Source of the DNA: Polytrichum commune
Lineage: Eukaryota; Streptophyta; Polytrichopsida; Polytrichales; Polytrichaceae
Direction of reading: 5' to 3'
Assembly: GCA_950295325.1 (NCBI GenBank)
Contig: OX485806.1
Coordinates: 45,999,169 to 46,063,168, forward strand
Length of the DNA stretch: 64,000 bases
The notes under the pieces are model-generated. The model worked only from the letters and a program-made list of their open reading frames with translations, was not told the DNA's origin and did no database searches. The translations under genes were made by a program, and so were the position numbers. Of this stretch, positions 4,831 through 58,944 are shown piece by piece (position 1 is the first letter of the stretch; each line of letters opens with the position of its first letter).

Positions 4831-4879
4831 TGGTAGGGAACAACAAAATCCGCACCCACTAGCATGCCTCACCATTCAG

Positions 4880-11360: not shown

Positions 11361-11369
11361 AATATGTGC

Positions 11370-14430: not shown

Positions 14431-14439
14431 CACCTAGTA

Positions 14440-20437: not shown

Positions 20438-20885
20438 GTACGTAAGGTCCACTGTCCAGTTGGCTATCATTGCGTTGAGCAAAGTCTCAAGATCGGAGAC
20501 TTTGGTTGTTCTTGACTGCTCGAAATGTTGATACTAATGTTTTTTGTTGTCTGTTTGAGGAGTTGCAAGTATTTTACCGTGGAACACGTTGGTGACGGAA
20601 GTTTGTCCTAACGTGTTCTACATAATGTCTCTTATTTTATCGTGTGGGATGATTGCTTCGTGAGGTTGTTATCTACATCCTTGGTTTTCTGTGGCTGGGT
20701 TTTCTCCGTTTTAGCTTAGTGAGAGTGACTATGTCATTGAGTAAGTGATTTCACGCATTTTCTGAGAGCCATCACAGAAACTTGGACATGGCTACATGCG
20801 GTTCTAATTACTTGCCTAGATCTTCAGATTTGTACATCATGAAACGTTTTCATCTCTTGTAAGGAATTAGTTTATATCGGTGCAG
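20438..20885 (+). other. 5'-UTR intron of the RZ-1A-like gene
   Basis: Donor ACTG|GTACGTAAG and acceptor CGGTGCAG|ATAG fit plant consensus. No coding start lies upstream in frame, so the intron is in the leader. Leader introns often raise expression in plants; that is general knowledge and not shown here. Confidence 0.55.
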
Positions 20886-20915
20886 ATAGCGGTGTCTCAA
20901 GGCGGAGAATCTGCG

Positions 20916-25442: not shown

Positions 25443-26196
25443 ATGACTTCCTTTCCCTACCCTTTGCCATCAGTCCCACCGCATTTGGGTGCTACATGCA
25501 ATATTATCACAAATTGGATGAGAGGGGTCAAGGACGCGAGTGACCAACAAGTGGCTCTAGTTCTAGTGTTCCTAAACGAAGACTATTTATGTTCAGTTCC
25601 TCTCCATATGGGTGCTTTCTTTGCGAAGGTCCTAGCGGATGTTGTTGCTGGTTCAAAGTTTTGACCTCATGGGTATTGGGCTGGAAGTGTTGGAAAGACG
25701 AGGGAGTTCCCGATGGATTCCCCTTGGAGCTGAATTTTCACCTCCGAAATTACGTTTGGCCCGATGAAGGCACCCCTCTCAAGTGGTGGAGGGAGTCTGT
25801 CAAAGCCACTAAGCATGGGAAGAGCGCCTACACCAATAACGACGTTGGACCTCCAAGAAAATGTCCTGCAAGATCAAGAGGTAAGCAAATTAGAGGCCCG
25901 CCATCTTTATCGTGTTCATGTCGAACCTTGTCAAGTTGAAAGGCAATGTTTTGATGCCGTAATGTACGATGGCATGCCATTGGCAAATCTAAACACAAAC
26001 TTACGTAGCAGGGGGAAAGCCACGAGTGACCAAAATAGGCAGATTGAATGCGTCGAGTGTGGGCACAAACGGATTGTTCAAGAAGTGAGCAGAGGGAGAT
26101 ATGGACTCGGAGGTGAAGCGACTGAAAACGAGGTCAACGACCAAGACACAACAGACTCCAACGTATGAACTCCAGTCTCTGCAAGTCGTCACCAAG
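25443..26196 (+). other. Unassigned open stretches beside a solo LTR
   Basis: Two overlapping frames (25,589-25,939, 116 codons; 25,764-26,168, 134 codons) have fairly even amino-acid use (for example WPDEGTPLKWWRESVKATK), which suggests decayed coding DNA. I do not recognise a family. The solo LTR at 26,197 was inserted immediately downstream. Confidence 0.25.
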
Positions 26197-27137
26197 TGTC
26201 GCGCACCTCTCCATGAGGAGTGCCCGCAACACCATGGGCACAAGGGGGACCCCGGAGTGACACCCGGGACTTGTGACGCCATTGGTGAGAGGGACCAAGT
26301 GATCCTAAGGTGGGTGAGGGCCCCGGGCGTTTAGAACGCCTCCCACCCACAAAGACTAGGAGTCATGAGGGTAAAGCCATAAGCTATGAGTAGCTTATGG
26401 CGTCCCGATTCTAGAATGCTAAAGAACACCTCAATCTGAGGTGTGAGCTAGGAGATATGGCACTTTGAGTGGGATGCTGTCCCGGGACAGCGCCCTGGAA
26501 CAGCAGGGGCCTGGGAGTGGCTCCCGGGACTGCAAAGGTTTAAACAGGCATAACTTCCTCAATACTTGCCCGAATAGGGCAAGTGAGGTGTCCATAGGGA
26601 TCTACGTGAAATGTAGATGACGATAGAGTGGTTGGTTGTTAGATTCAGAGACCGCACGTGGAAGTTATGAAGGTCTGAAGCTGCAGGGAGGCTTCTAGAC
26701 CCAGCGGCTAAGGGAAAATGTCTACTTGGCCCCAACTCTTGGTAGAGAGACAAAAGGGATGTTGACGGTGGGGGAGGGGCCCCGCCAAAAGTCCTAGAGG
26801 CTTATATGGGTGAGGCGGCTTTGCCGACCGACCCCCCCCGGAGCATACTTGGCAATGTGCTCCGGGTGGTTGTAGTGTTGTCCTAGCAACACTATGACCA
26901 AGTAGGGAGTGGACTTCCATGGATGGAAGTCCACCTTAGCGATGGGTTACCTACTAAGGGGAAAGAGTCCCGAATGCATGTGTAGGAGGGTTTGGTGACC
27001 AAATATGGGATTGAAGGTCCGCGGTTTTGGGAGCTAACCATGCATGTGCGTGGGATGTGCAGGTTAGCGCTCGGGACACTTGCTAGAGTTGGAAAGCGAT
27101 TGAGCTAAGTGGAGAAAAACTAGCAAGGGTCGCGACA
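26197..27137 (-). mobile_element. Solo LTR, family L1, with 5-bp target duplication
   Basis: Runs from TGTCGCGCACC to GGTCGCGACA and is flanked by CCAAG on both sides (26,192-26,196 and 27,138-27,142), an intact 5-bp duplication. Three further copies lie at about 57,470-58,352, 49,452-50,287 and 50,312-51,144. On the minus strand it has CACCCATATAAGCC, a likely TATA element, so the transcribed direction is probably minus. No internal retroelement sequence flanks it, which marks it as a solo LTR left by LTR-LTR recombination. Confidence 0.85.
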
Positions 27138-29446: not shown

Positions 29447-30204
29447 GGGGGCCATTCACGGTTGGGGTACTACTTTTGGGACAAAGAACTTAAGGACTTT
29501 GTCGCATTGATCTTGGTTTTTATCATGATTTACTATTATTTGATCAATAAATTTTACATAAATAAGTAGATAGTTTATAAGCTTTATCAAGAAAGATTTT
29601 TATTATTATTTAATAATCATCCTAAACCCTAAACCCTAGGCCACATCAGTGGCATTTTTTTGTTATTTAGATGTGCATTGGTGGTCAATTATTTCCTGTT
29701 ATGTATTTTGGTACCTTGGTAAAAGTGTCATGTGTCCATTCATATAAATTTTTTTGTCCAATTCTAATACTAGACGTTTCTTTTACGTGTGGCCGTGAGT
29801 ATATGTATATTTGGACATGTTTGGTGCCACATGTAAAGTTGGGCAATTGCTATTCAATACATATTTGGTTCTATTGGTACACACTTGAACGATGAGTGTG
29901 AGGAAAAAATTTAGGATCGTTTCGATTGATTCTTGTTGTCCTTTTCATTCCTTGATCCTAAGGTGAACAATTAAGACAACAGTCCTGAATGTCCTTTAAG
30001 GAATCAAAAGGATATCTTAGATGACCCTATTCCCTCTAAATTAACTTTGTCAGTGTACTCGATATGGAATATGAAATGTAGGTATGATCCAAAATATGCT
30101 TCACAATACAAATCTAAGCATATATACCAAGCATGTGAAGTTATCCAAAAAAGTCCGTTTTCCACTAGACGGCCAAAAGTAGTACCCCAACCGTGAATGG
30201 CCCC
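29447..30204. mobile_element. MITE-like insert (758 bp) with ~30-bp terminal inverted repeats
   Basis: Both ends carry the inverted sequence GGGGCCATTCACGGTTGGGG and then TACTACTTTTGG, ending at 29,447 and 30,204. Flanks are TAT on both sides (29,444-29,446 and 30,205-30,207), read ATA on the transposase strand. Excision in thought restores an unbroken reading (EGYVI then VEALGFC). Terminal repeats starting GGG(G)CC and a 3-bp duplication resemble PIF/Harbinger-type (Tourist) elements, although their usual duplication is TTA or TAA. No transposase inside. Confidence 0.7.
29621..29638. repeat. Interstitial plant-type telomere-like motif
   Basis: CCTAAACCCTAAACCCTA, two and a half CCCTAAA units, inside the MITE-like insert. 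Short stretches of this kind occur in plant promoters (telobox) and transposons. Confidence 0.7.
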
Positions 30205-30207
30205 TAT

Positions 30208-30930
30208 GACATAGCCTTCAGCCATGCAACCCTTTGGTCGAGCACGGTTTCGGACGTACCCTTTTAGAGTCTTCAGGTACCTCTCAATAGGGTACATCCA
30301 ACGTGTATGTACGGGTCCACAAATTTCCACTTCCTCCACGAGGTGCAGGACCAAATGGCTCATGATGTCAAAAAATGATGGCGGGAATTCTTTTTCCAAC
30401 ATGCATAGTGCTATGGCCGCTTCACACCTCATCTCCTGTATTGTTGCGGGATCAATGGACTTAGCACATACCATCCTGAATATACGGCTCAACATTATTA
30501 TTGATGTCTGCACTTTCTTTTCCATTGTGCAATGCACACATAGTGACAACACTTGCTGCATGAAGACATGGTAGTCATGGGATTTCAGGCATTTTATGTG
30601 CCCATCCACGTTTACGCGGTTCTTCAGCTTACCCACATAGTGGGTGGGGGTTCGCAATGCACGCACTTGCTCCACAAAAACTTCACGCTCTTCTTTCGTC
30701 ATAATGTACGAGGACCAAGGTAAAATGACGCTCCCGGGTTTTGTTCCTGCTACGGGCCAAAGATGCTTGCGTATACCCGCCTCCTTCATGTCTAGACGAA
30801 CTCCAAGTGCGTCCTTCTCTCCAAATATGGTTTTCATCATATTTTCAACGATGTTTTTCTCACAGTACATAACATCCAATGTGTGTTGAATTAGAAGATC
30901 CTGCAGAATGACTCGAGCTAGCCAGAAATT
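30208..30930 (-). pseudogene. CACTA transposase, end of TNP2 and DUF4218-like region
   Basis: Reads LIQHTLDVMYCEKNIVENMM, a hallmark of TNP2, then ILPWSSYIMTKEEREVF, LKSHDYHVFMQQVL, FPPSFFDIMSHLVLHLVEEV, GPVHTRWMYPIERYLKTLK and NRARPKGCMAEGYV. The last blocks match DUF4218 (sHD.hvfmqqlLp, HL...ev, Y.fERymk.LK, N+a+pEgsiaegy). The frame stays open for about 225 codons before the MITE-like insert interrupts it, so decay here is mild. Confidence 0.85.
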
Positions 30931-31049
30931 TGCCGGAGCGAATCACAATATCACTACGTGCAATCATGTGACTGTACATGGCTACATCCACTCACATAAT
31001 TCTCATAAACAATATTACTACGTGCAATCATGTGACTACGTCCACTCCC

Positions 31050-32686
31050 TTAATTCTCATAATAACATACACGTACTTTCCAGTATGGAAGGTCATATAG
31101 ACATGTCCTCCTCTTCACTCCGTGTTCGTGTACGGGGTCTGTCGTCTGTCTAGTTTGGTTTTTGCAGTGTTTTTTCGTCCACTCTTCTCGCTCGTTTGCA
31201 TATCGCAATTGCTCTCGACCACTCATCCTTCTTGGCGGTGGTCTCATCTCGGGCTGCCCATCAAAATTGGACTTCTGTCGTCTCTATTGGTGGGTCATTG
31301 GCAGTTGTCGTCTATGCCCAAGGTAAACATTATTTTTCAACGCTTTGGAACGCCGTGTTGCCATGTTGGGGCCACAGACGGGGCAAACCCTATGTCCTTT
31401 TGTTACTTGCCTGGAAATTAATCCGTACGCCGGGAAGTTAATCCGTATGCCGGGAAGTCATTCACCGTCCACAAAAGCATGCCATGTAGCTTAAATGTTT
31501 TCTCTTTGGAGTTTCCTTGCGATCCGTCCAAGCAATCGATCCCTTTCCAAAGCTCTTGGAGCTCCTCAATCAATGGTGCTAGGTACACATCCACGTTCAT
31601 GTCCGTCATACTCTCTTTTCCTGGTATGATTAGCGTAAGCATCATGAAGAAGTTTTTGGTCACTAACCAAAGGGGGAGATTGTAGTTCAGCATGACCACG
31701 GGCCAAGTAGAGTGGCTGAGACTTTGGTTCCTAAACGGATTTACGCCATCCAGTGCAAGGCCAAGCCTAACGTTCCGTTCCTCTTCCGCAAACCACGGCC
31801 ACCTATTATTTACGTGGTCCCAAGCCTTCGAGTCCACCACGGACCTCATCACCTTGTCTTTACTTTTCCCACCTACATGCCACTTCATTAGCTCCGCCAG
31901 CTGTGTACAGCTGTACATCCTTCACAAACGAGGAATCAAAGGAAAATGTCTCAAAACTTTGACTAGAATTGTTTTGGAGTTCGTTACAAACCGCGATTTG
32001 TGGCATGTTGGGCACTCCGTTGCATCCTCCAATTCTTTCCGAAACAAACAACATCCATCTCTACACGCATGTATTGAGTTGTAGGACAACCCCAACTTCA
32101 TCAACAAGCCTTTCGCCTCATATAATGATTTTGGTAGTGTGTTGTCCTTGGGTAAAATTGTTTCCTTCAACAACTTCAACAACTCATCCACAAAGTTGTT
32201 TGGTACGGCGAAGGTGGTGCAACACAATAGTAGCAAGAGTGTCGATGTGAGACGGTTCGAGGGGCTTCCCTCATACAGTGGAGTTCCAGCTTCGCATAAA
32301 AGAATCTCGTGGTCTACCCCACTGGGGTCCTTGCTGTTCATGGTACTCCCTCTTGTTTCCATGGGGTCATTCATTTCTTCCCTTTCCTCATCGCTACCTT
32401 TAATGTCATTCGTTGTGAAACCATCCTCCCCTTCATTGTCTTCAACTAATGCATCCCCGAGTCCCTCATGTATGGTGGCTTCGGTTTCGTGTCCGTCAGA
32501 ATTGAGGCTATCGTACTTGCCGAAGCACTCTGCCACCATACGTAGAACCTCAACTTCTCCATCTTGTCCATCGTTTGTGTTAGGGTATGTCTGGCTTCTT
32601 TGTGTGGGAGCCCAAAAATCCACGGAAGTCCAGATTGGCTTCCTAACCGGATTAATATCCGGATAATACCCTGGTATTGTTCTCAA
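31050..32686 (-). pseudogene. CACTA TNP2-type transposase, N-terminal and central part
   Basis: The N-terminal part has LYEGSPSNRLTSTLLLL, NFVDELLKLLKETILPK, LPKSLYEAKGLLMKLGL and HACRDGCCLFRKE, then the Cys pair ECPTCHKSRF. A single TGA at 31,922-31,924 replaces an expected Arg (CGA to TGA); the frame continues MYSCTQLAELMKWHV, RLGLALDGVNPF and LTLIIPGKESMTDMNVDVYL to 31,418. There a 20-bp tandem duplication breaks the frame, and VCPVCGP, YLGHRRQLP and the next blocks continue in another frame to 31,050. These are TNP2 (Transposase_21) signatures. The enzyme would cut CACTA ends; this copy cannot make it. Confidence 0.88.
31418..31457. repeat. 20-bp tandem duplication in the TNP2 gene
   Basis: Two adjacent units TTAATCCGTACGCCGGGAAG and the same with one difference (T for C). 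They add length and lead into a frame break. Confidence 0.8.
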
Positions 32687-33124
32687 AGTGGGGTTCCCTA
32701 GGGTCGGATAGTTGTTTTATGAAATAAGGTTCTACGCATCCGCCTTACGTGTTAAAATGGTTAGAACGGACACTTTGGTTGGACCGGAACTTAATCCTGG
32801 GGGACCGTTTTTAAACGGTCCGGTCCGGAGCGTCCGGACCGGAAGACGGTTACACCGAAACCCGGACGGTTGTAACGGACTCGGAGCGGTTGCAACGGAA
32901 ACGGTTAAGGACTCAAGCCCATTAGAGGAAGAGGGAGAGAGTACTTAAAGGAATTTCTCTCCTTCTTCGAGCCCTTTGCGCGAGCGGCATTGTCGAGAGA
33001 ACAAATGGTGAGCTGCTTTTCGAGTCGCCAGCAATTGGATTGTTGGGATTCCTTAGTGATTGGCATATAGAACTCCGGAGGGAAGAAGCCGGGGATTGTT
33101 AGAGGATTGAGGGTGCGAAGCAAA

Positions 33125-37339: not shown

Positions 37340-38440
37340 GAGGGTATGGACTGAGGCCTTAGCCGAGGGCCTTGTATTTGTTGGATTCAATAGACTAGCA
37401 TGTATGTAAATAGGCACTTTGGTTGGATTTGAAGTATTTAAACTAGTGTTTGGATGAGGCCTCGGATCTGAGGCTTTTCGGCCGAGGGCCCTATATTTGT
37501 TGGATTCATATAATGGCTTGTATGTAAATGAGGCACTTTGGTTGGATTTCAGTATCAAAACTAGTGTTTGGATGAGGCCTCTCAGCGGAGGCCACTTGTG
37601 GTTGTTGGATTCATAGACAAGCTTGTTGAAATGAGGCACTTTGCTTGTTTTTTAGTATCAAAACTAGGGTATGGAGTGAGGCCTCTCTGCCGAGGGCCTT
37701 GTTTTTGTTGGATTCAATAGACTAGCTTGTATATAAGGAGGCACTTTGGTTGTAATTGAGTATCAAAACTAGTATTTGTATGAGGCCTCGGATCCAAGGC
37801 CTCTCGGCCGAGGGCCTTGTATTTGTTGGATTCAGATAATGTCTTGTATGTAAATGAGGCACTTTGTTTGTTTTTTAATATCAAAACTAGGGTATGGAGT
37901 AAGGGTATGGAGTGAGGTCTCAGCCGAGGCCACTTGTGGTTCTTGGATTCAATAGAATAGCTTGTATGTAACACAACGCTTTGGTTGTTTTTTATTATAA
38001 AAAAGAGTGTTTGGATAAGGCCTCGGATCCGAGGCCTCTCGGCCGAGGGCCTTGTGGTTGTTTGATCCATGTAATGGCTTGTATGTAAATGAAGAACTTT
38101 GGTTGTTTTTTATTATCAAAACTAGTGTTTGATGTGAGGGTATGGAGTGAGGCCTTGGCCGAGGGCCTTGTATTTGTTGGATTCAATAGACTAACCTGTA
38201 TGTAAATGAGGCACTTTGGTTGGACTTGAGTATTTAAACTAGTGTTTTGATGAGGCCTCGGATCCGAGGCCTCTCGGCCGAGGACCTTGTGTGTGGTGGA
38301 TTCATATAATGGGTTTTATGTTAATGAGGCACTTTGGAAGGATTTGAGTATTTAAACTAGTGTTTGGATAAGGCCTCGGATCCGAGGCCTGTCAACCAAG
38401 GGCCTTGTGTGTGTTGGATTCATAGACTAGATTGTATAGA
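37340..38440. repeat. Minisatellite, units ~105-145 bp, rich in palindromes
   Basis: At least eight imperfect units share the order GGCACTTTGGTTG, AACTAGTGTTTGGAT, GAGGCCTCGGATCCG, GGCCGAGGGCCTTGT and TTGTTGGATTCA. Several units contain a perfect 22-bp palindrome centred on GGATCC (for example 38,252-38,273), followed by a TCGGCCGA palindrome. Units vary by insertions. The array ends about 320 bp before the first exon of copy B. Confidence 0.85.
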
Positions 38441-38761
38441 ATGAGGCCTTTTGTAGATGTTTTATACACTGTACTTGGGTATGGAAGTGGCCGTGGCACT
38501 TTGTGTATGTTGGTAGTGTGCTTACATTTCTTAACCGTCCGATACTTTCCATTCATGAGTTTTTTATATGTACATCGCAAGGACCTCTTTGACACTTTTT
38601 ATCTCATCATGACGGCGGCAATGAACGTGGTCGGTTCTCGCTTGATTCCCCTTTCATAATTCAATGAATTTGGGTTCAAGCCAAATTGTGAGTATTTGTT
38701 TGTTAATAATTTCTTATTTGAGTGTTCTTTGGGAATTTCTAATGTGCTTTCATGTTCTTAG

Positions 38762-39270
38762 GATTTGGAATCCTTTGAGGTTGCGTAGTCACAACACCAA
38801 TCCGGAGAAGACGTTGTTCTTGCTGCCCCCCCCGTCAAAGTTGACGCCGTCCAGGTTGAGAGTCCCAATTCGTAAGGACTCCTGCATGGGACTGTTGCAA
38901 TTGGCCAGGATACCTTCTTGGCCATCTCCGACACGGATCCTGTTGTGTGTGAGCTTGAGTTCCGCAAATTACAAAAGGAGGACTCAAACGGCGTTATCCA
39001 ACGCCTCCGGATTAAGCCCACCAGTATGTCCCGCTAGCAAGATGCCTCCGCGGAGTTCGATGTCAAGCTGAAGGAGGATCCGGATCTTGCACATCTCTGT
39101 GGGAAGATGTTTTTCGTGTGGGAAGGAAATTATCGACTCACAGCATGGTGGAGGCACATCAACAACAACCACGTTGACGAGAAGAGTTGGCATGTCTCGG
39201 TGAATTGTATTGTGGTCGACCCCAAGGGTTGCACCGGTGTCTTCCTCAATGTAATGAGCGACATTAATTA
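38762..39270 (+). CDS. Copy B exon with the ParB-like segment
   Basis: After acceptor TTCTTAG it encodes a Val/Ala/Pro-rich lead, GTVAIGQDTFLAISDTD, VIQRLRIKPTSMSR (ParB strand-like), and MFFVWEGNYRLTAWWRHI followed by SWHVSVNCIVVD. Stops at 38,786 (TAG), 38,873 (TAA) and 39,035 (TAG) each stand where Gln would fit. The exon ends in a split codon TA|G. ParB-type domains hydrolyse CTP or cut DNA in bacteria and phages; what this relative does is not known. Confidence 0.5.
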
Positions 39271-39337
39271 GTAAGCATAGATTTTTTTAATTTCTTCCGT
39301 TATTTTCATTGGCCGGTTTCATTTGTTTTTCTCTCAG

Positions 39338-41219
39338 GCCTACTGAGCATGATTACGTCAAGGCGAGCATTCATGCCAAGCTCTTTCGAATTCGTACGTT
39401 TGGGAGATTGGAATTATCGACGTTCAAGGATCTCATTTCTCCTGCTAACTACAAAACATGCGAAAAGATTAAAGAGAGTCGCCCTACTTGGTACACTCTC
39501 ACCGCGGATGTCTTCGTCAAATTCCTTTACAAGGTATGATTTTGCATTCCGTCTTCTCCATTTCCCGAGCTACATTCCATTTTGCATTTCCATGCCAATT
39601 GTATTTGCTCACAAGATCATTTTTTGCAGAGAGTCATTTTGGCACAAGTTGACCTTGCAGTGAGGCATTACCGTGAAACCACTCCGGTTGACAAAATGAC
39701 TGCTACTGAGATTTGGAATATCATGACCAAGGCCCAAGAGAGGACAATCAAGAGCATTCGGGCACGCACATTTAAAATATATATCTCGGTCGCACACCCT
39801 GAAAATGGGGAGGATTTCTTTCACGAGGTATCCCTTCTTCACTTCCATGTTTTCCTTTATATGAATAATCCATTCATTTATATACCCTCCTGAACTCATT
39901 TCATTTCTTTGGATGTGCGCAAATTTACCGGCACTTTAATGAGTTTGCCTCGACCGACATGACAATTGAAAAATTATAGAAAATTGTCACATGTCCGGTC
40001 GAACCTTCATTAAAAGCCAAGTGGCTTCATTGGTGGAACGCATCTATTCGTAAGAGGTCGGAGAACAAGTTTCTCATCGACAAGCCTATGAGGGAAAAGG
40101 CTTTGGACGACTGGCTTTACAAGGAATCATTCTGGGCTCAGGCATATCCATTCTTTGGCCTTCTTAATTTTGTTCATTTTAGTTGGAGAGAGAAGTCTCG
40201 GTCCAGATTGAATCATTTCAGGACGACCTCACCATATATATCAATTGGGACGTATCGGAGACTATCTTGTGCCCTCGTAAATATGTTGATCACTAGAGGA
40301 TTCTCATTTGGGATAGAACTTTCAAGCCTTACCTCGGCAATAAGCCTGACATCCCCTTTGTCAAAGGTGATAACATCTTGGAGTTTGAGGAGGGTACTCT
40401 AGCTATCAAGCGCGTCGCCTATCGTTTTTTACATTTTTACATTTTTACATTCTTCGCTCTTCATTTCTTACATTCTTGCACTCCATTTCCTGCTCTTTCT
40501 CATGATTATCTTAATTCTTTTTGTTTTGTAGTTATATCATGAGAGAGTTGGTTGCGAAGAATGCATTGGCATCATCTTTCTTGCCCACCTACATCTCGGA
40601 TTGGGTGAACGTGTTTTCTAGCCTCTGCGTGTATACGACCACGCAAACAACCAAGTTTCCTGAATCTCATTTGCAGGCTAGGGGATGGTATTTGGATTGT
40701 TCTGGAGGATTTGTGCCTAGGGAAGAAAAACTTTTTTTTGCTAGCCTAGTGAGTAGTGCTCCCGATGAGAACATTGTCCCCTTTGAGGAGCCCGACATCG
40801 TTGAGCTTCCTTCTCCTCCGCCTAAGGCACCAAAGGAAAAGGGCAGAGCAAAGAATACCACCACTCAAGCCTCTTCCCAAGTTGTCACTCGGTTTGCTTC
40901 AAAGACCCCCGCTCAGCCACCCATCTTACTACGGAGTCCATCTAGCACTCCCTACGTTGCTCCATCAGCTGCCCCTTCTGGTACTCCCTCAGCCTTTCGT
41001 CCACAAACTGTTGTTACGCCTTCTCACAATGACACTTCTGTTCTCTCCTTGCCTCGCAAGATGAAGGCGGCCCTCTTGGATACGAGTGTCACCTCTTCAG
41101 AGTCGCCTACCACGCTTGCCCTCATCAAAAATGTGGACATGGTGCAACTCATGCTGGATTCTAAGCTTGCAGGAAGTTCCCTTCCAGCATATACCCGCAT
41201 CTAGGAGTTCATTGCCAAT
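39338..41219 (+). CDS. Copy B middle exons (five exons, family-specific region)
   Basis: Exons 39,338-39,533, 39,630-39,827, 39,923-40,141, 40,207-40,424 and 40,532-41,219 match copy A region by region: LSTFKDLISPANY, KAKWLHWWN, ILIWDRTF, VKGDNILEF and ARGWYLDCSGGFVP. The last exon continues into a low-complexity Pro/Ser/Thr/Ala stretch (about 40,800-41,050) instead of the charged coiled coil of copy A, then ends AYTRI(stop)EFIAN. TAGs at 39,977, 40,294 and 41,202 interrupt it. No known family recognised. The length, about 450 residues between the ParB-like and methyltransferase-like parts, is unlike simple prokaryotic fusions. Confidence 0.5.
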
Positions 41220-41232
41220 GTTTGTATATTTC

Positions 41233-43379
41233 TGTGAGGCCAAACCCCCCACCCTTAAGCGTCCGTAGTCCGAGTAGTGGGTTTGGGCTCACATTCCTCC
41301 GCGGTATTGGATTTGGACTTGGATGAGTCCATAGTGCAAGGTTCACCCTTTAAGTGGTCTTGGATTTAACTGGAATTTCACTTTTAACAACTCAATGTAC
41401 AATTTCAATACGTATGTGGAGAATGCACAAGTTAACTATGTTATTTTAACCTCCTTATGCTCAGGTGCTATTTTGTCTTTGTTTGCTTCTAACGTCCATC
41501 CGGCCGCTTTAGCTACACAAGCCCTTAAGGATATCCCTCTCCTAAATGGAGTCCGTGCCGTTGACTCTATACTACCACTTGAACTATCACTTGTGTATTC
41601 CGTATCGCTACTATAAGAGGTCTCACTTGGTGTCTCCATACCGTACATAAGCCTTTAAGTATTAAGAAATACTTATGTGACTTATGTCAATCTCTCCCTC
41701 GCACCTTTGGTCTTTGCTTCCTTTGTCTTGCCATCGCGAGAGTGCTCCACATTCTCCATTAATTTGTGCACGTGGTTTATTTTTAAAGAGAGGATGCAAG
41801 TGTTAAAAAAAACACTATTCTCTATAGTCAATCTCAAATACATTTACTTGTGAAAGCCACCATAACACTAACTAGCATAATGTAACTAACTACTTGTCTA
41901 TGAGCTAATTAGGTAGGCTATCTACTAAGCTCCTTCATGAACCCATCTCTTTACTTTCTAATTACATAAACCTAGCTCCTTCATAAACCCAGCTCCTTCA
42001 TAAACCCAGCTTCTTAGCTTCTAACTAAACAAACCCAGCTCCTTCATGAACCCAGCTCCTTAGCTTCTAACTAAACAAACCCAGGTCCTTCATAAACCCA
42101 GCTCTTTACTTTCTAACTAAACAAACCCAGCTCCTTCATAAACCCGGCTCCTTCATGAACCCACAACTTTGTAGTTGTAAATCCCAACTACCTCACTAAT
42201 TATTCAAGCCCTTAACTAATCTTCCTACCTAATTTCCCTAATTCTACTAACAACCCCTTTCTAATCACACAATTCTTCTCTAATCCTAAAATCCTAAAAT
42301 CCTAGAGAGGAGAGGGGGAGAGAGAATTTCCTAACTTCACTAAGACTAACTAATCCACACAAGTATATTTTTGCACTCATCACAACATCAAGTGCTCAAC
42401 TCTTAAACATGGAACTTGTAACCACGTGTATTCAAAACATGAACTTTAAGTACCACAAATTGGAATCATGAATTAACTTTAAAATCCTTCACGTCAACAC
42501 TAATTCTACCAAGAGGTCAAGCCTTCTTCAAGGCTAACAAGCCTTGGCTCTCAAACTAAAAACTAAGCACACGCATGTGCTCCAATATGGCTTCCCACAC
42601 CCACACTTATAACTCGTGGGGTGCCTTGGAGCACAAAGGAAAGAGAGGATGAGTGAGGGAAGAATGAGGGATTATATAGTAAGCTTGAGGGGGTGAGCAC
42701 CCTCAAGGCTCACGATAAGCCCTTGAGATTTCCTCCTACTTAGTAGGCGCCAATCCTATCTTCTAAGCCTTCCTCCCTCAAATGATCAACAAGGATCCTA
42801 ATTCGAACATTTAACTAGCCTTGGCTTTCTACCTACCACACTTTACCAAACTTGGGATGCTTCAACCCAAACTTAGCCTCCTTCGCTTTCCGCCGCCATA
42901 ACTTTCTCCCCTTACTTTTCCAAATCGTCGCTCACCACTTAATTCAAACCACGATGCTTAACTCGTGATTTGATTGGTGCTTTGAGAATTTGCTTATCCT
43001 CCACCTTGCATTCTTCCTTGGGCCTTCCCCATTAAGTGGCCATGATGAGGTGGTCCACTTGTGCGCTCCATGTGATCCTCCATTCATCCCAATTCGAATG
43101 CACTTGCCTCTTGAGTCACTTTGGTTGTCTCCATCCATTTGTACTAGCCTACTCACTAACTACTCAATCCAAGTTCTCCTTACCTATCCTCATTCACTCA
43201 AATCCTTCCGAAGGTAAAAACACAATAACAACTCACATCCTAGCCTCTTACAACATGGTACTTCTAAGACTAACATTTCACTCTTTTTATATTTTTGTGA
43301 AGTAACATGCTACTTCAAAGTGCATCAACTAACGTTTCAAGGGTCTAAGACTAAATGTGGGCACCCTTTTGGGCTCACA
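41233..43379 (-). mobile_element. Solo-LTR-like element, family L2, inserted in copy B intron
   Basis: In minus sense it starts TGTGAGCCCAAAAGGGTGCC (43,379) and ends GGGTTTGGCCTCACA (41,233). The 5-bp duplication ATTTC is at 41,228-41,232 and 43,380-43,384. It lies 13 bp beyond the donor of the preceding exon and lengthens a once-short intron by 2.1 kb. It carries a diverged copy of the small L2 ORF (ATG at 41,757-41,759; core RGISLRACVAKAAGWTLE) and GGAGCTGGGTTTATGAA tandem units. Confidence 0.8.
41900..42180. repeat. Tandem units CCAGCTCCTTCATAAACC in L2
   Basis: Eight or more short units AACCCAGCTCCTTCATRAA separated by CTTTCTAACTAAACA, a diverged counterpart of the array in the other L2 copy. 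Confidence 0.75.
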
Positions 43380-43456
43380 ATTTCTCTTTGTCATTTTTTA
43401 GGCTTCTTTATTTTTGGTTTGTTTCTTCTTTTCCTTGCTCTTGTTTTCTTATGAAG

Positions 43457-43797
43457 TTTAAATTACAAGTTGGGGCAGGTCGTTCCCGTGTGAACACCTC
43501 AACTACAACTCACAAGGGCCTCGATTTGCTCTTAGCAGATATTCTCGAGAATTTGCCGGTGCCCAACATCTCCACCGATGTTCCTTCTTGGAACAAGCTC
43601 CATGAATCATATTATGAGTGTCTTTATGCATTTACAAAATCTAACCTCTATAATCATGGTGTCCTTGTCCTTGCCCATTGTGCTTTGTTTCCAAGATTGT
43701 TTTTTATTGGGCACACACTTACGATTTCTAAGTCGCTGAAGATTGGTTTGGTATGAATGATTTGGACCTCCAATCCCCTGTGGTCCCCTCCGGAGTG
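43457..43797 (+). CDS. Copy B exon, methyltransferase-like motif IV region
   Basis: Pyrimidine-rich tract, acceptor ATGAAG and donor GTG|GTAAGT. Encodes DLLLADILENLPVPNIS, a helix, LYNHGVLVLAHCALFPR, and after a frame change DWFGMNDLDLQSPV. It matches copy A exon 24-371 closely in plan. Where DNA methylases have DPPY the sequence is DILE, so the catalytic motif is lost. A TAA near 43,725 (Gln-like position) also breaks it. Confidence 0.5.
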
Positions 43798-43886
43798 GTA
43801 AGTAACTCTTTGTCTCTTACTACGCTTGTGTATTGTGTTTTGTTGCACTTCTTCTGAGTCTTATGAAATCATTTTAATTTTTTCAG

Positions 43887-44142
43887 ACTCGGAAATTCAA
43901 CATTAAGGTTTTTGTTCGTGTTAACTCCGTTCTCAGAGTGCGTGAGGAGGCCATGCAAGAGTATGGTTACAACCTCCAGCAAGATGGATGGTTGAATGCC
44001 TTCACCGATGAGAGCCAGGCGATGCACTCTGATGGGATACCTTGGAGAGGTGCTCGTGAAAAACATCATGTTTTCTTCTCTATCCTTCTCGCTACTCTCA
44101 CCGACAAGAATGATGTTATTATGGACTGGCAGTGTGGTGTAG
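43887..44142 (+). CDS. Copy B exon, methyltransferase-like motif X to I
   Basis: Acceptor TTTCAG and donor GTAG|GTACGC. After a charged stretch (VREEAMQEYGYNL, perhaps part of the recognition region) comes REKHHVFFSILLATLTDKND, then VIMDWQCGV. In beta-class DNA methylases the KPxxLLxxLI helix is followed by (G)DxVLDPFxGSGT; the layout here is the same, with D and G kept but the F and last G changed (DWQCGVA across the splice). This permuted order supports the methyltransferase assignment while suggesting poor or no SAM binding. Confidence 0.5.
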
Positions 44143-44253
44143 GTACGCCTTCTTTTTCAACATCATCCTTACTTTGAATTTTCAGTTATCTTTGCTTCAC
44201 TAGTTTCCATACTAACATTTTACCTTTCTTTGCTTTATGTGATTCGATTACAG

Positions 44254-44757
44254 CATGTCGCTCCCTTGAGCGGCATATTGTGGCCCTTGAGAGTGACCCC
44301 ATCATTTTCAATGCATTCCTACTTCCCATGCGCGATCCCTAGCCTGCGCGTACATCTCGCTCAGTTGCCCCACCGTCTACATCTATTTTTGATCCGCCTT
44401 AGAAGATGACCAAACGGGCATTCGGTTTCCTTTGTGCGTAAGTTTGCTTTCTGTGTTTTGCCATGTTTGCGTTGATGTCATTTTTCCATCTTCCTGTGTC
44501 ATTTTGTTTCTAATCTTTTTGTTTGGGGGTTCAAAGAGCCAGCGGAGAACGCAGTCCTTCGTCAAGGCATGTTTTTGAGTCCTCCGAAGCCATTTGAACT
44601 TCCCCCGTATGCTAGTGCCATGGCGGATTGCTTTGCTAAGGCAGAGTTCCCACCTCCTCATCGCGTTTGCCATTTCTCGCGTGGGACGCGAAATCTTTTT
44701 TTGTTAGAAGCAAAGGAGGGTGAGGAGAGTGATAGGGAATGTTGTCCAAGCCCTTAG
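44254..44757 (+). CDS. Copy B C-terminal exons
   Basis: Exon 44,254-44,437 continues RHIVALESDPIIFNAFL, comparable to the (G)RxxxGIExxxxY/F-xxA segment after motif I, then TAG at 44,340 and 44,400. The last exon can be read two ways: in phase it stops at TGA 44,595, but the neighbouring frame (FELPPYASAMADCF, HFSRGTRNLFLLEAKE, stop 44,757) looks more protein-like, so a frame change at the splice or in the exon is likely. Confidence 0.4.
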
Positions 44758-45401: not shown

Positions 45402-45619
45402 TAGTGCTGACGTCAGCCGTAATTTATGTTTATTTCAACGGAATTGGGCTCCCTTTTCAATAAATGTTTATCCTAATACCCCCTAAACCCACGTTAATAT
45501 GTCCATTTTTTGTCAAAAATTATTCCAAAAATCCCAAATCTCCGCTTTCCGCTCTACGCTGACATACTCACGTTCCCCAATAAACTCACCTACAGAAATC
45601 ACGCATAATACCAAAAGAA

Positions 45620-48600
45620 AGGATTGTGCTATAATTGTCATGAGCCAGGACATTTGGCTAAGGAATGTTTGCGACCAGAGGAAAAATGTCCAAAACAATA
45701 TGCAGCGTTGGTAATGGAGGTGGAACCGTCAATGGTGTCCAAGGGTAAAGAAATAGTTCATGAGTCAGCTGCAGTCTGTGAGGAGCGGGTAGCGAGTGAA
45801 CCTACAGTGCTCCATGTTCAAGGGTCAATTGGTACTCAATCAACTTCTATGTTGATTGATTCAGGGACAACCCATAATTTGCATAAAAGTTGGGATTTCC
45901 AGTCACTTAGACCGAACCTTGTAAGGCTTTCTTACCCAATGGTGAGTCCAACCCGATTGACTGTCGATTGTTGGACGTCCCTGTCATATTGCAAGGAACA
46001 CAAACCATTGCAAATTTTGAAGTTTGGATAGGAAGTCAATACGACGTCATTTTGGGAATGGCGTGGCTCAATGACGTGGACGTATGGATTGCTTGCAAAC
46101 ATGGGGAGGTTCATGGCAAAATTTCCGACGATAAACATTTCACAATCAAAGGTACGAGAACTCTACTTAAAATACCTTTATTTTGTGCTACACAAATGAA
46201 AAGGTGTTTGAAAAAGAAACAAAAAGTCTTTGCAATTGATTATTCGTAAGGTTTCAAATGAGTCGGAATCAAGTTGCAAAGAACCAATAAATGTTGAGGA
46301 TTTTCTTGCAAATTATTAGGGTTATTTTCTTGATGAGTTGCTAGGAATGTCACCTCAAAGAGAGGTGGATCATACTATTGAATTGTTACCTGGTGTGGCA
46401 CCGATAGCTAAGGCATCTTATAGATATTCTTTTAAAAAGAATGTTAAGTTGGAAACTTAATTAAGAGATTTGTTAAAGAATGGTTACATTTGACCTAGCA
46501 AATCTCCGTAGGATGCTCCTGTATTATTTCAAAAGAAAAAAATGGTAGTTTGAGGCTATGTGTGGATTATAGAGGTCTCAATAAGCATTGAAAACAAATA
46601 TCCATTGCCAATATTTATTGAATTGGTGTATCAATTGAGTAGGGCTAAGATGTTTTCAAAAATTGATTTGAAAATTGGATTTAATCAAATAAGAATAAAT
46701 AAAATGGCATTGCAAAAACAACTTTTCGTAGTCGTTTTGGTCACTATAAATATTTGGTAATGCCTTTTGAACTTACCAATGCACCTGCCACATTTATGAA
46801 TTTCATGAATATCATATTCAAAGAATATCCGAGAGTCTTCACCTTTGATTTCATGGATGACATATTAGTATTTTTCAAAAACAAGGAGCAACATAAAGAA
46901 CACGTTGAGAAGGTGTTTGATGTTTTGAGAAGACATAAATTTTATGCTAAAAGAAGCAAGTGTCAATTTTTCCGCACCCAGATTGAATACCTTGGACATG
47001 TGTTGTCTGGCGAAGGTGTGTCAGCTGATCCTAAAAAGATCAAAACGATGGTTAGGTGGCTCATGCCAAAGGATAAAATTGAGGTCAGACGCTTTTTGGG
47101 GTTGGGTACTTACATGTGGAAATATGTAAGGGATTTTGCCAAGATTGCAGCGCCATGACAGATTTGTTGAAAGGAAAATTTGAAAAAATCACTTGGACTC
47201 GTAATTGTCATGAAAGCTTTGTGGCTTTAAAGAAAGCTCTGACAGAAGCCCCAGTCTTTAGGATCATGGATCCCTTGAGAGGCGGGCTAGTCTTATGTAC
47301 AAATGTCAATGATATGGCTATAGGTGTTGTCCTTATGCAAGAAGGCAGGGTGATCGCTTATGAATCTAAACAATGCAGAGTTGAATTATCTTGTTCATGA
47401 GAAAGAGCTATTAGCGATAATTCACGCATTAAAGGTTTGGCGTCATTACTTACTAGGTAGTGAATTTAAGATAGAGACAGATCATCAGTCATTATGATAT
47501 TTGACCAATGAAGCTAATCTAAATCGTAGACAAAGTCGTTAGATAGAATTGATGCAAGAGTTCAATTTTGAGATTCAATACGAGAAAGACAAAGAAAATG
47601 TTGTTGCAGATTCTTTGTCACGTAGACCCTTTTCAAATGCAGTGTCTTTAGTGAAAGACACTATATTTGATAACGTCAAAGGATGTTATAAGGATGATGT
47701 GTTATTCTCTATTCATTTTGAGAGTTTGTCGAAAGAATCTATAACTCAAGAGGAAATTGATAAGTTTTTTGCCTATACTTTAGATGCCGATATTTTATAT
47801 TATAAATCTAGAATTTGTGTTCTTGAGGTGGGAGATTATAGAGAAAATATTATCTATGATTGTCACAATATTCCTATCTCAGGTCATCCAAGGTTTCAGA
47901 AAACATATGCGGCAGGTAAAGAAATATTATTTTTGGCCAGGATTGAAAAAAGATGTGAAAGATCATGTCGAGAGGTGTTTGTTATGTCAAATGAACAAAG
48001 TGGAGCAAGTAAAACATCTAGGGTTGTTGCAGCCATTGTCAGTGCCTAATAGAAAATGAGAGTCTAATTCTATGGATTTTATTGTGGATCTTCCTAGGAC
48101 TCAAAAGGGCTTTGATAGCATTTTTGTGGTCATTGATAGACTAACTAAGGTAGCTCAATTTATACCTACAACTACAACTGTGATAGCTTTGGGAGTAGTT
48201 GAGTTGTTTTTTAAAGAAATATTTGTGAATTATGGGTTGCCGTGAGAAATCATTTGTGACAGAGATAGAAAATTCTTGAGTGAATTTTGGAAATCTTTGT
48301 TCAAATTATGGGGCACCAAGATTAGTATAAGTTCGGCATATCATCCAAAAATGGATGGACAGACTGAGAGAACCAATAGAACTCTTGAAGACATGCTTCG
48401 AATGTATGTTGGTAAAAGACAACAGTCTTGGAATAAGTGGTTGTATTTGATACTATTTGCTTATAATCAACGAGAGCATAGTAGAATAAAAATGAGTCCA
48501 TTTTATGTTTTATATGGTCAAGAATGTAGAACTCCAATCTCCTTAGCAACTCCTAACTCTAAAATTGAAAGTTTAAATCAAGTGATTCAAGAAATGCATG

Positions 48601-49130
48601 GTATATTGGAATGTGCTAAGCAATGTATGCAAGGTGCACAAAAGAGATCTAAATTCTATGCTGATCAAAGTGGTAGTGTAAGAGAATTTGAAGTTGGACA
48701 AAAGGTATTTTTGAAAGTAACACCTAAACTCTCTAGATTAAAACTTGGAAGGTCTAGAAAATTATCCTGCAGATTTTGTGGTCCGTTTCAAATTATTAAG
48801 AGAGTTGGTCAAGTAGCATATGCATTAGACTTACCCAAGGACTGGAAAATTCATAATGTGTTTTATGTAAGTCTGTTAAGAAAATAAGTATCTGACCCCA
48901 ATCATGTACTTCCAGATTTACCTCAAATAGTTCATGAGGGGATGATGTTGGCTGAACCTGAAAGAAATTAATAGGTTAATTTGCAACACCTCAGGAATAG
49001 GTCATTCAGAAGATTTCTTATTAAGTGGAAAGATTATCATGAAGATGACGCATCATGGGAGTTAGAAAATGAGTTTAGGGAAACTTATCCAAATTTTGTC
49101 ATTACGGACAATGACTTAATTTGAGAGCAA
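45620..49130 (+). pseudogene. Ty3-gypsy chromovirus polyprotein remnant
   Basis: In order: gag zinc knuckle CYNCHEPGHLAKEC (C-x2-C-x4-H-x4-C, about 45,626); protease LIDSGTTHN and YDVILGMAWL; reverse transcriptase FSKIDLKIGFNQI, VMPFELTNAPATF and FMDDILVFF; RNase H (WTRNCHESFVALKKAL, VVADSLSRRP); integrase (MDFIVDLPRTQKGFDSIFVV, SSAYHPKMDGQTERTNRTLE); and a chromodomain (FLIKWKDYHEDDASWE) near 49,010-49,060. The chromodomain places it with chromoviruses, whose chromodomain steers integration to heterochromatin. It has TAA, TGA and TAG stops and frame changes and lacks most of gag and the 5' LTR, so it is dead. Confidence 0.92.
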
Positions 49131-49440: not shown

Positions 49441-49451
49441 ACGTTACACTA

Positions 49452-50287
49452 ACCCTCCTACTTTGCATTTAGGACTCACCCCTTAATTGGTAACCAATAC
49501 TTAAATGTGGACTTTCATTCATGAAAGTCCAATCATATGTTGATCATCACTTTGCCGGAGCTATACTATAACAACCCGAACCATATTAGACAACTATGCC
49601 CTCACATTGGGCCAATGCCCATGAAGGCCGTGCCGTTTAACCTTGAGTGGATTTGGCGGCCACATCGCCTCACCCATATAAGCCTCCAGGACTTTTGACA
49701 AGGCATGTACCCCACCGTCAAGAAATATTTTTGTCTCTTTACCAAGAATTGAGGCCAAGTAGATATTTCCCCTTAGCCACTAGGGCTAACAACCCTTAGT
49801 AGCTTTAGATCACCATCACTTCCTTGTATGATCTAAATTGCTAACAGGCGACTGCTTGATTATCATCTATGCTTCATGTTAATGTCAATGGACTCCTCAC
49901 CTGCGTCATTCGAGCAAGTATTAAGGAAGTGATGCCTATTCAAACCTTGGCAGTCCCGGGAGCCACTCCCATGCCACTGAGGAAGCAGGGCGCTGTCCCA
50001 AGACAACGCCCCACTCAAATTGCCATATCTCCTAGCTCACACCTCCTATTGAGGTGTTTTTGAGCATTCTATAGTCTTCACGTCATAAGCTATGCATAGC
50101 TCATGGCCTTACCCTCGTAACTCCTAGTCTCCATGGGTGGGAGGCATTTCCAACGCCCAGGATCCTCACCCATCCTATGATCACCAGGGCCCTCTCACCA
50201 ACGGCATCACAAGTACCGGGTGTCACTCCAGGGTCCCCTTTGTGCCCATGGTGTTTTGAGCATTCCTCATGGAGTGGTGCACAATAC
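49452..50287 (+). mobile_element. LTR, family L1, plus orientation (5' end missing)
   Basis: Matches the L1 solo LTR through ACCCTCCTAC, GTGGACTT...AAGTCCA, CACCCATATAAGCC, GGCAGTCCCGGGAGCCACTC and the final GGGTCCCCTTTGTGCCCATG to GGTGCACAATA. The first ~130 bp are absent. It stands about 25-30 bp from an inverted L1 copy. Confidence 0.75.
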
Positions 50288-50311
50288 TAGGCATTGCGAA
50301 CATCTCCCACT

Positions 50312-51144
50312 TACTTAGACTAAGAGTCACGAGGGTAACATTACAAGCATTGGTTAGCTTATGATGTCCAGGATTTAAAATGTTCAAAAACACTCCAATC
50401 AAAGGTGAGCGCTAGGAGGTATGGCAATTTGAGAGGAGTTTTGCCTAAGGACAATGCCGAACATTCTAAGGGACGACAGTGTCCTAGGAGTGGTGCCCAA
50501 GACTACCAAGTTTAGAACAACCATAACTTTTGTAATACATACCTAAATGGGGCAAGTGAAGAGTCTATTGGCATTTATGCAAAGAGTAGATGTTGATGGA
50601 ATAGTTGCTTGATATAATAAAAGGTAGCACAACAAAGTTATGGAGGTCTGAAGCTATTCGGGGACTTCAGGCCTAGAGGCAAAGTAAAATTGTCTACCTA
50701 ACCCCAAGTTTTATAAGAGGGACTAAAGGTTACTTGATGGTGGGGTAGGGGCCCTGCCCAAAGTCCTAGAGGTTTATACGGGTGAGGCGGCATTGCCGAC
50801 CCACCCCACCCGAAACGGAATGGCACGGCCTCCACAGGTGTTGGTCCAACATGGGGACATAGTTGCCAAGTATGCTACAGGTAGTTGTGATGTTGCTTCG
50901 GCAACGCAATGATCAACTCAAGATTGGACTTCCATGAATGGAAATCCACATCTAACAATTGGCTACATACTAGTGGAAAATGCACAAATGCATGTGTAGG
51001 AGGATTAGTCACCAAGCTATAAGCTTGGAGGTATAAGTAGCTAACCATGCGCGTGTATACAATGTGCAAGATTAACGCTAGAGTTGAAAAATGGTCAAGA
51101 TAAGTTAAGGGGAGCTAGCAAGCCTTAAGTTAAGGGTTGTGACA
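50312..51144 (-). mobile_element. LTR, family L1, minus orientation (3' end missing)
   Basis: Starts within the L1 sequence at GACTAAGAGTCACGAGGGTA and ends AAGGGTTGTGACA at 51,144, the L1 outer end. It faces the copy at 49,452-50,287, so the pair forms a ~0.8-kb inverted repeat. Confidence 0.7.
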
Positions 51145-56545: not shown

Positions 56546-57469
56546 TATATACATGTCAAGTTACAATATTATAAATAGTAACACTTGAGCTTAAAAAGGA
56601 AGACTCAAGAATATTAAATCTTCTTCATCATTATAATATTACTATCAATTGTGTGATTTATGTTTATGAACTACTAACCTTAAATGATTCATACAACTTA
56701 TTGAACACTATATTATTATCAAAGATATTGTTACACCTCTTGAAGCTTTCTTTAAATCTAATGGTTCTTATTATCAATGATGCCTTACATTGAGAGTAAG
56801 AATTAAGATAATGAGATTGTGTTCACTCCAATAATTATATTCATATCATAAGGAGAAGAGAGGGATTATTAATTCGAGACCGAACATATTAATGAGGCAC
56901 GGTAGTTCTCAAGCGAATATAAATTTACGTGATGTCTCACCGTGAGTCTTCTTGAGCTAAATTGCAAGGGAACGACCCACGGGGTGCATCATCGTTCTAG
57001 GAAAGGTATCCTTAACTACAACCTTGCACATGGATCTACCTCTATAATGAAACATGTGATTAATGAACACGCTGCTCATATAAAGAGATATAAGGAAATT
57101 GTGGCAGCCACTGATGTAGAGGGAAAAAAATAGAAATGCAAGAAAAAGAAACATGTGAACCTTAGTGCCATAACTAAATACTATGGTAGTACTAACCCTT
57201 ATGGGAAAATAGATGTAGCACAACAAAGGTTTTTGGAGGATCTTGTTTTTTATATTGCAAAATGATACATCGCATTATCTGCAGTGGAGAATCCATGGTT
57301 GCGGCGTTTGGTGCTACGACGCGATCCAAAGGTCAAGTTTTCCACATGAAAACAGTTGGTGAAGGAGATCATCCCATCTATCTTGCAAAAGACTATGGAA
57401 CGTATTGTCGCAACCCTTGCTAGCTCCATTAACAATATTGCCAATCTTCATTTAAAGCAAAGGTTACGA

Positions 57470-58352
57470 GCGCCAACCCTTCGCATTCCACCATGCTAAT
57501 GATTAGCTCCTCTTACCCCGGACCTTATAATTCATAGGAGGAGAACCAACCCTCCTACTTTGCTTTCAAGACTCACCCCTTAATCGGTAACCAATTCTTA
57601 AATGTGGACTTCCATCCATGGAAGTCCAATCTTATGTTGATCATCGTATTGCCGGAGCAACACTACAACAACCTGAACCATACTAGGCAACTATGGCCTC
57701 ACATTGGGCCAAAGCCCATGGAGGCCGTGCCGTTCGGCCTCGGGTGGGTGAGGCCACACCACCTCACCCATATAAGCCTCTAGCATTCTAGGCGGGGCCC
57801 CTACCCCACCATCAAGAAACCCTTTGTCACTCTACCAAGAGTTGGGGCCAAGTAGACATTTTCCTTTAGTTGCTGGGCCTAGAAGCCCCCAGCAGCTTTA
57901 GACCATCATAACTTCGTTGTATGATGTTTGATGCTAACAAGCAATCACACCATCTGCATCTACGCTTCACGTAAATGCTGATGGACCCCTCACTTGCCTC
58001 ATTCGGCCAAGTATTGAGGAAGTTAGGCCTATTCAAACCTTGGCAGTCCCGGGAACCACTCCCAGGCCACTGCTGTACCAGGGCACTGTCCCGGGACAGC
58101 GCCCCACTCAAATTGCCATAACTCCTAGCTCACACCTCCGATTGAGGTGTTCTTGAGCTTTATGGAATCACCACGCCATAAGTTACGTATAACTCATGGC
58201 CCTACCCTCGTGCCTCCTAGTCTCCGTGGGTGGGAGGCGTTTCCAACGCCCGGGGCCCTCTCACCAACGGCGCCACAAGTCCCGAGTGTCACTCCGGGGT
58301 CCCCCTTGTGCCCATGGTGTTTCGGGCACTCCTTATAGAGAGGTGCACGACA
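57470..58352 (+). mobile_element. LTR, family L1, inserted in the hAT remnant
   Basis: Close to the solo LTR at 26,197-27,137 in inverse sense: ACCCTCCTACTTTGC, CATCCATGGAAGTCCA, CACCCATATAAGCC, CAGTCCCGGGAACCACTC, final GAGGTGCACGACA. The 5' edge is diverged so no target duplication could be shown. Interrupts the transposase between its zinc-finger part and its catalytic region. Confidence 0.7.
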
Positions 58353-58944
58353 CGTATTGTATTGCCGACATTGGCAAGTTGTGCAATAATTGCAATGACT
58401 TTCGATCTGTAGATGTTGCATATGAGAGTGGACACGTTCTGTTTGGTTGGGAACTTCATAGATAACGATTAGGAACAACGACATACCATTGTGGGTATTT
58501 TTGAAGCATCAAATACTGTAGGAGCAACTTTAGCAATTATTGTGAAGAGGTTTCCTTCGTATTTCCACCTCACAGACAAAGTAATCTTGTATATGAAAGA
58601 TGAAGGTAGTAATTTGAAAACATCGGTGTCAGCTTTAACATCAGTTATCTCTTGCAAGCCTTTGGCTTTGTTGCAACCCAACCCGCGAGTGGGTTTTGGA
58701 CAGATTATGTAAAAGGCATGCCAATATTCTACATACGACACAAAAATTTGTATGGGAATGAAGAAGGTGTCCATTAAAGAGGCTCAAACAAACTTGCAGA
58801 AAACAATTACATGGATTAAAAAATCCGGAAAATAAAGAGTAGAGTGGGATAAAGCATGCGTTGAAGTGAGACTTGACTTTTGAAAGTTAAAGACACTTGT
58901 GAAAACAAGATTCACAAGCAAAGTCGTGTTTTTTCAAGTGGGAA

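Follow-up and report, generated by a model that had tools for sequence, protein, structure and literature searches.

In phages and bacteria, fusions of a ParB_N domain and an N6_N4_Mtase domain (PF02195 and PF01555) place a ParB-like part before a permuted DNA methyltransferase (MTase), in proteins of approximately 420 to 440 amino acids (three scanned). A much larger protein has been described in Ectocarpus, where the giant DNA transposon Sola1-1_Ec32 encodes an accessory protein of 1,104 amino acids with a ParB-like part and an N4C/N6A MTase, and similar ParB-MTase proteins are cited, in the accessible part of the same source, for transposons of green and red algae (PMC12477816). In the VANDAL transposons of Arabidopsis, according to the available portion of PMC5735166, the anti-silencing VANC proteins bind short motifs that have been amplified as tandem repeats. 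Here, we analyzed a window of Polytrichum commune DNA, i.e., the whole stretch of 64,000 nucleotides from position 45,999,169 to 46,063,168 of contig OX485806.1 (assembly GCA_950295325.1), in which an earlier note had described a spliced plant gene combining a ParB-like segment with a permuted MTase-like domain. At this locus, we found a decayed copy of a DNA transposon that bears terminal inverted repeats (TIRs), is MULE-like, and carries a SWIM-type transposase gene divergent from an accessory gene for the ParB- and MTase-like protein. This transposon is large and recently mobile. Transposon-borne ParB-methylase proteins are thus already known from algae; here, they occur alongside a matched array of palindromes, and their catalytic motif is degenerate.

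Compared by description with Sola1-1_Ec32, the element is alike in that the gene lies on the strand opposite the transposase and encodes a ParB-like part and a DNA MTase in a protein of similar size (1,104 versus 1,087 amino acids). It differs in being a MULE-like element with 10-bp target-site duplications (TSDs) and a SWIM transposase, in its plant host, in its degenerate DPPY motif and in its palindrome arrays, of which the accessible part of PMC12477816 makes no mention. The host has three LEAFY-like loci, which match the A. thaliana domain at 70 to 74% identity across 103 to 104 residues, in keeping with the land-plant lineage. With the VANDAL/VANC system it shares a DNA transposon with an accessory protein and short motifs, specific to the lineage, that are arrayed in noncoding tandem repeats, whereas the VANC motifs quoted in the available portion of PMC5735166 are not palindromes, unlike the sites found here; this comparison was also made by description. 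The phage and bacterial fusions have the same order of parts and an MTase that is similar over 193 columns, but the transposon protein has hundreds more residues between the two parts and a degenerate DPPY. To our knowledge, the VANC system has no ParB or MTase component and VANDALs lack long TIRs. No report of transposon-borne ParB-MTase proteins of land plants was found among the titles listed in the literature searched, with most subscription journals outside its coverage.

The transposon was delimited in two copies, A and B, which were assembled from neighboring stretches (for copy A, L029, L014, and L030 were joined). The two were 99.3 to 99.4% identical over 7.3 and 6.5 kb flanking a variable repeat region, and the identity ended at both outer edges, giving a length of approximately 16.6 kb for copy A (3507-20137) and 18.7 kb for copy B (1461-20144). 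Imperfect TIRs of approximately 50 bp and 10-bp TSDs (CAACTGGCCA in A and GAAATACAGG in B) were present in both. The TIRs of copy B (1472-1520 versus 20133-20086) aligned at 94%; those of copy A aligned at 86% over approximately 75 columns, with the alignment extending some 20 bp into the flanks. The minus strand of the left part of copy A holds open frames of 766 and 555 codons, which were joined at a guessed junction and used as the transposase query. Of 7,116 candidates, 39 proteins matched this query at E ≤ 0.01, and in the 19 of these that were aligned, D, D, and C-x2-H were invariant. A SWIM zinc finger (PF04434, E 6.8e-5) was detected in one of the 19, of which 17 have 855 amino acids or fewer and probably stop before the SWIM region. 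Copy A has a C-x-C...C-x-H pattern C-terminal to the DDE core, without a Pfam match there. MULEs are characterized by TIRs, TSDs of 8 to 11 bp, a D/D/CxxH triad, and a C-terminal SWIM finger. The present element resembles them in its TIRs, 10-bp TSD, invariant D/D/CxxH, and C-terminal SWIM, and differs in that no Pfam MULE domain was found in the two open frames (E ≤ 1), in pieces of the core (E ≤ 10), or in the 19 homologs scanned (E ≤ 0.5). Because this domain was not found, the label MULE-like rests on the TIRs, TSD length, SWIM, and D/D/CxxH. On the plus strand of copy A, the frames 4002-4487, 8590-9042, and 9143-9661 were noted as a possible third gene; the latter two are common to L009, L017, and L023, and in L055 they are 70% and 38% identical.

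The family is far from confined to the window. In the 408-Mb genome, a degenerate DNA pattern for VIMDWQCGV, a motif of the accessory gene, had 76 exact sites (34 reverse, 42 forward) spread over seven contigs, while the reversed control pattern had none, and a query built from the ParB exons of a second, minus-strand copy in the window had at least 319 genome matches (150 of 1,634 candidates scored). The family is, thus, larger than two copies. Twenty of the 76 sites were taken as 10-kb loci for comparison, and 11 of these loci form one young subfamily, mostly 96 to 99.5% identical over kilobases. The transposase had at least 65 matches in its own genome (64 of 2,400 candidates scored), a list that is a lower bound; 13 of the listed matches round to 100% identity, and four, including copy A, tie on the top score. 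Two of the 65 are pieces of one gene, and 64 matches were used for pairing. An accessory-gene motif lay within 30 kb in divergent orientation for 35 of the 64, on the same strand for one, and in convergent orientation for none, compared to a mean of 0.19 and a maximum of 3 in 1,000 runs of random placement. The remaining 29 transposase matches were unpaired, and 41 of the 76 motif sites were without a listed transposase. The element holds at least two genes and may hold more. A spliced, constrained protein with a bacterial-type MTase domain could also be expected of a family of host plant genes that derive from phages or bacteria, the origin put forward in the earlier note. This was not borne out, since both fully delimited copies lie inside TIR/TSD-bounded repeats with a transposase and the copies are scattered over seven contigs, paired with transposase genes; we regard such a host family as very improbable, although the protein itself may still go back to an old bacterial or phage source. 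A mobile DNA transposon accounts for the expansion of the gene family.

The accessory gene comprises 11 exons, which together give the 1,087-residue frame. In three of the 20 loci (L014, L019, and L027), this frame is open through all exons with a terminal stop only, and splice sites are mostly consistent across copies, with GT/AG at every intron in L019 and L027 and AT for GT at one donor in L014. Proof of the exon 9/10 junction comes from L015, L020, and L025, which are without that intron and read DWQCGVGGSITACRS continuously. The prediction of a spliced gene was, thus, correct. The same three loci constitute a subfamily with precise loss of one accessory-gene intron. A splice model without the residues GGSIT was ruled out by the intron-less copies, and with the corrected junction, the best E-value against the PDB went from 0.57 to 0.0083; a full-protein search with that earlier model as the query gave no hit at E ≤ 0.01 among 8,000 scored candidates. 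The protein is under purifying selection between subfamilies, with a ratio of nonsynonymous to synonymous substitution rates (dN/dS) of 0.16 to 0.25 for all exons and 0.13 to 0.23 for the MTase exons; within the young subfamily, the overall ratio was 0.30 to 0.39 (few changes). In comparisons of L019 with L015, L016, and L012, dS was saturated in the alignable exons 2-6 and 0.3 to 0.6 in exons 7-10, and the gene, therefore, looks mosaic.

The permuted DNA-MTase domain claimed for the C-terminal part held up. In a phmmer search against the PDB (E ≤ 5), all five matches were amino-methyltransferases: DpnA twice (E 0.0083 and 0.0087), two N4-cytosine MTases (0.33 and 0.38), and CcrM (0.51). A PHROG methyltransferase matched at E 0.0023. 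A tblastn search against phages (E ≤ 10) returned 67 records (best E 1e-3), with a methylase or methyltransferase annotated at the match in all 20 that were listed. The Pfam check proposed earlier gave a weak match to PF01555 (E 0.16), but an hhalign comparison of a six-sequence profile with 10 phage and bacterial methylases gave Prob 96, E 3.6e-9, and a score of 68.5 across 193 columns that begin at the DPPY region and end at motif I, compared to scores of at most 19.6 for 40 column shuffles and 13.8 for the reversed profile. A scan of IMG/VR for relatives of this domain yielded 33 pattern matches, none of which was confirmed. In the alignment of six sequences, G199, G200, S201, and E216 are invariant, and the catalytic [DNS]PP[YFW] is degenerate in all six (DIPEN, DISEN, DVPEN, or DIPKC). 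These comparisons support the view that the C-terminal part is a permuted N4/N6-MTase domain that has kept the glycines and the acidic residue of the S-adenosylmethionine (SAM) site and has lost the catalytic motif. For the algal proteins, the accessible part of PMC12477816 proposes an active N6A/N4C methylase that binds its own element and marks it; the same role here would be consistent with the MTase homology, the conserved G-G-S and acidic residue, and the purifying selection between subfamilies. At the DPPY position, however, all six sequences read D-[IV]-[PS]-[EK]-[NC], without a conserved aromatic residue, and we consider an active enzyme unlikely.

The N-terminal part has GNHR-x2-A and SR-x-SIPLC invariant in four of four aligned copies, with identities down to 40%. 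In an hhalign comparison with 17 ParB sequences, the best local alignment fell on the ParB GxxR motif but did not reach significance (score 17.8; best of 40 nulls, 16.7). An exploratory ParB profile from which an insert of approximately 45 residues was removed brought no improvement, and a phage search with this part returned no ParB among 19 matches. A single-sequence fold of the ParB exon in the window had a predicted local distance difference test (pLDDT) score of 35.5 and was discarded. Assignment to ParB is plausible as a motif-level inference and is strengthened by the algal precedent.

Tandem repeats between the two divergent genes hold two-fold symmetric sites with the core CGG-NN-CCG and arms that are specific to the subfamily. 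The perfect 20-mer AGGCCTCGGATCCGAGGCCT (type I) occurs 31 times in copy A and 42 times in copy B, always between the genes and never near the ends. In L011, L012, and L016, the palindrome is CCCTCTCGG-NN-CCGAGAGGG, and in L015, L020, and L025, it is CTCTCG-ATT-CCGAGAG (type IIb). Counting perfect CGG-NN-CCG palindromes with arms of at least 6, with 20 dinucleotide shuffles of each sequence as the control, we obtained 3 to 43 in the elements of type I (shuffle means of 0 to 0.1); L011, L012, and L016 had 8, 24, and 23, respectively, and shuffle means overall were 0 to 0.15. By the same rule, there were none in L015, L020, and L025, none in L028, and none in a further 34 kb of the window. Across the genome, the type-I 20-mer had 2,137 sites and its reversed control none. 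Among the 50 distinct sites listed, 44 lie in two known copies (L009 and L010), 2 lie no more than 0.9 kb from a transposase match without the accessory-gene motif, and 4 lie within 6 to 13 kb of matches to the minus-copy ParB exon. A Dam- or BamHI-type target, considered for the GATC center of the type-I palindrome, was dropped because the type-II centers listed are TT, AA, AG, TC, and CA.

The palindrome type was compared with the ParB type, set by exons 3-5, in 21 copies (the 20 loci and the plus-strand copy of the window). All 14 copies of ParB type I (13 loci and the window copy) had palindrome I only, and all 6 copies of type II had palindrome II or IIb only; L028 had neither palindrome type within its 10 kb. 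In every one of the 20 informative copies, palindrome type thus tracked the ParB half, and the MTase exons were 79 to 93% alike across types. In our preferred reading, which we rate as slightly less likely than not, the accessory protein would bind the palindromes of its own element to counter silencing, with an MTase half that is mainly non-catalytic. ParB loads densely at parS. By analogy with this and with VANC at its motif arrays in VANDAL elements, the ParB-like half would recognize the palindromes arrayed in its own subfamily and load densely over the shared promoter region, keeping that region from silencing, and the MTase-like half would mainly bind SAM or engage DNA instead of acting as a methylase. 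It is also possible, and we suggest it tentatively, that plant transposons carry a self-recognition module made up of a ParB-like/pseudo-methyltransferase fusion and a parS-like array, in which the arms and the ParB half co-diverge and the MTase half recombines freely. Such a module would be an anti-silencing device independent of VANC and derived from bacterial or phage parts.

Several observations weigh against binding of the palindromes by the accessory protein. The ParB-like segment of the earlier note stands as far as its G-x-x-R-x2-A motif goes (four of four copies), but this part had no Pfam match, including PF02195 (E ≤ 1), none of its three matches in a PDB profile search (E ≤ 10) was a ParB, and its hhalign score is close to the nulls; in a second local test, the score was reached by 2 of 60 nulls, and in the global mode by 37 to 38 of 60. 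Within the young subfamily, dN/dS of the MTase exons was 0.44 to 0.74 (few changes). Type IIb (L015, L020, and L025) breaks the CGG-NN-CCG core, and the minus-strand copy in the window has only two sites, of the TTTCGG-NN-CCGAAA type. Because the array sits next to the ParB exons, the association between ParB and palindrome types could arise from linkage alone, and the 20 informative copies represent, by our reading, approximately seven lineages (about four of type I and three of type II) and are not independent within subfamilies. The palindromes might accordingly be neutral by-products of the growth of tandem repeats, which vary in copy number, and their match to ParB type might be linkage only; the flanks of the palindromes in L023 and the window copy are indeed still like those of L019. 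We find this improbable, as the core is kept where the remainder of the repeat unit differs (L024 and L055 versus L019, and L012 versus L016) and the symmetric CGG-NN-CCG arrangement is common to types I, II, and III, whose arms differ. The array of L055 (C4:33617662-33625661) holds 35 palindromes, mostly spaced by approximately 128 bp, beside a stop-free transposase frame, and no accessory gene was found in the 8 kb read. Together with the position of the arrays between the divergent genes, this would suit binding by the transposase or by host factors (as an enhancer or promoter), with the ParB-MTase-like protein acting elsewhere, e.g., as a transposition cofactor. This alternative is somewhat unlikely in our view, given that the sites of copies A and B lie between the genes and away from the TIRs, and that the arm sequence varies jointly with the ParB half.

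Within the window, the plus-strand copy is present at 38,762-44,757. It is a pseudogene with stops, frameshifts, a deletion of 193 bp of the ParB exon relative to L014, and an insertion of 2.15 kb. The inserted repeat is not found at that place in other copies, in which the gene continues from 41231 to 43381/43413. The first intron is absent, such that the first two segments run together. The evidence for the MTase-like region in this copy was obtained with other copies of the family. The left TIR and a transposase match were looked for in the window, and neither was found. The plus- and minus-strand copies share their exon order, as the earlier note had said, and the plus copy carries all the motifs described (MFFVWEGNYR, DLLLADILENLPVP, VIMDWQCGV, and RHIVALESD). 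In the minus copy, whose ParB exon carries two stops, MFFACDGNHR and DLILADIPKCLPVP are present, but the counterpart of VIMDWQCGV/RHIVALESD is ILDYTVATG / GSSIHACRNVHRHIAALEAD, in a motif I exon located to the left of the window. The features of both copies are given in Table 1, followed by those of the rest of the window.

Table 1. Features of the 64,000-nucleotide window (window coordinates)
Feature	Position	Strand	Remark
Decayed accessory gene (ParB-like and MTase-like)	38765-44757	+	Exons mapped from L014/L019
Exons, first part (about)	38765-38893, 38894-39268, 39338-39533, 39630-39827, 39923-40141, 40183-40424	+	
Exons, second part (about)	40532-41219, 43469-43797, 43887-44142, 44239-44437, 44535-44757	+	
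Rest of ParB-like exon, MFFVWEGNYR (G-N-x-R motif)	39035-39268	+	193-bp deletion versus L014
MTase-like exons 8-10	43469-44437	+	DPPY degenerate (LADILENLPVP), followed by motif I and acidic motif II
Unrelated 2.15-kb repeat between exons 7 and 8	41232-43380		96% match to repeat copy in L010
Remnant intergenic tandem array	37362-38453		118-bp units
Type-I palindrome	38018-38037		AGGCCTCGGATCCGAGGCCT
Type-I palindrome	38253-38272		
Type-I palindrome	38371-38390		
Right TIR of plus copy (about)	45532-45580	-	
Second decayed copy, with greater divergence (type III)	18-3825	-	
ParB-like exon of minus copy	3310-3825	-	
MTase exon of minus copy with DPPY position	18-392	-	
Tandem repeats upstream of minus-copy ParB exon	4275-4445		45-bp unit
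Palindrome near minus copy	4201-4214		TTTCGG-NN-CCGAAA
Palindrome in minus copy	978-995		TGTTTCGG-NN-CCGAAACA
DUF4218-containing frame	30007-30942	-	Domain known from CACTA/En-Spm transposons
Neighboring long frame	31925-32716	-	No Pfam match
Tf2-1-like SH3 domain frame	48246-48884	+	Probably integrase end of a Ty3/Gypsy retrotransposon
hAT transposase dimerization domain	59290-59934	+	E 8.4e-5
Glycine-rich RRM and CCHC zinc-knuckle frame	20843-21562	+	Likely host RNA-binding protein gene
Repeat of about 0.7-1 kb, four copies	26192-27137, 49448-50291, 50290-50966, 57406-58353	Both	Also matched within L005 stretch

Should the accessory protein target the palindromes, the Polytrichum elements would offer a protein-site pair with natural variants in specificity and bear on how transposons other than the VANDAL elements escape silencing. 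If true, the proposed recognition would also link the ParB-methylase proteins of algal transposons to the land-plant lineage and suggest a role for their DNA-binding half.

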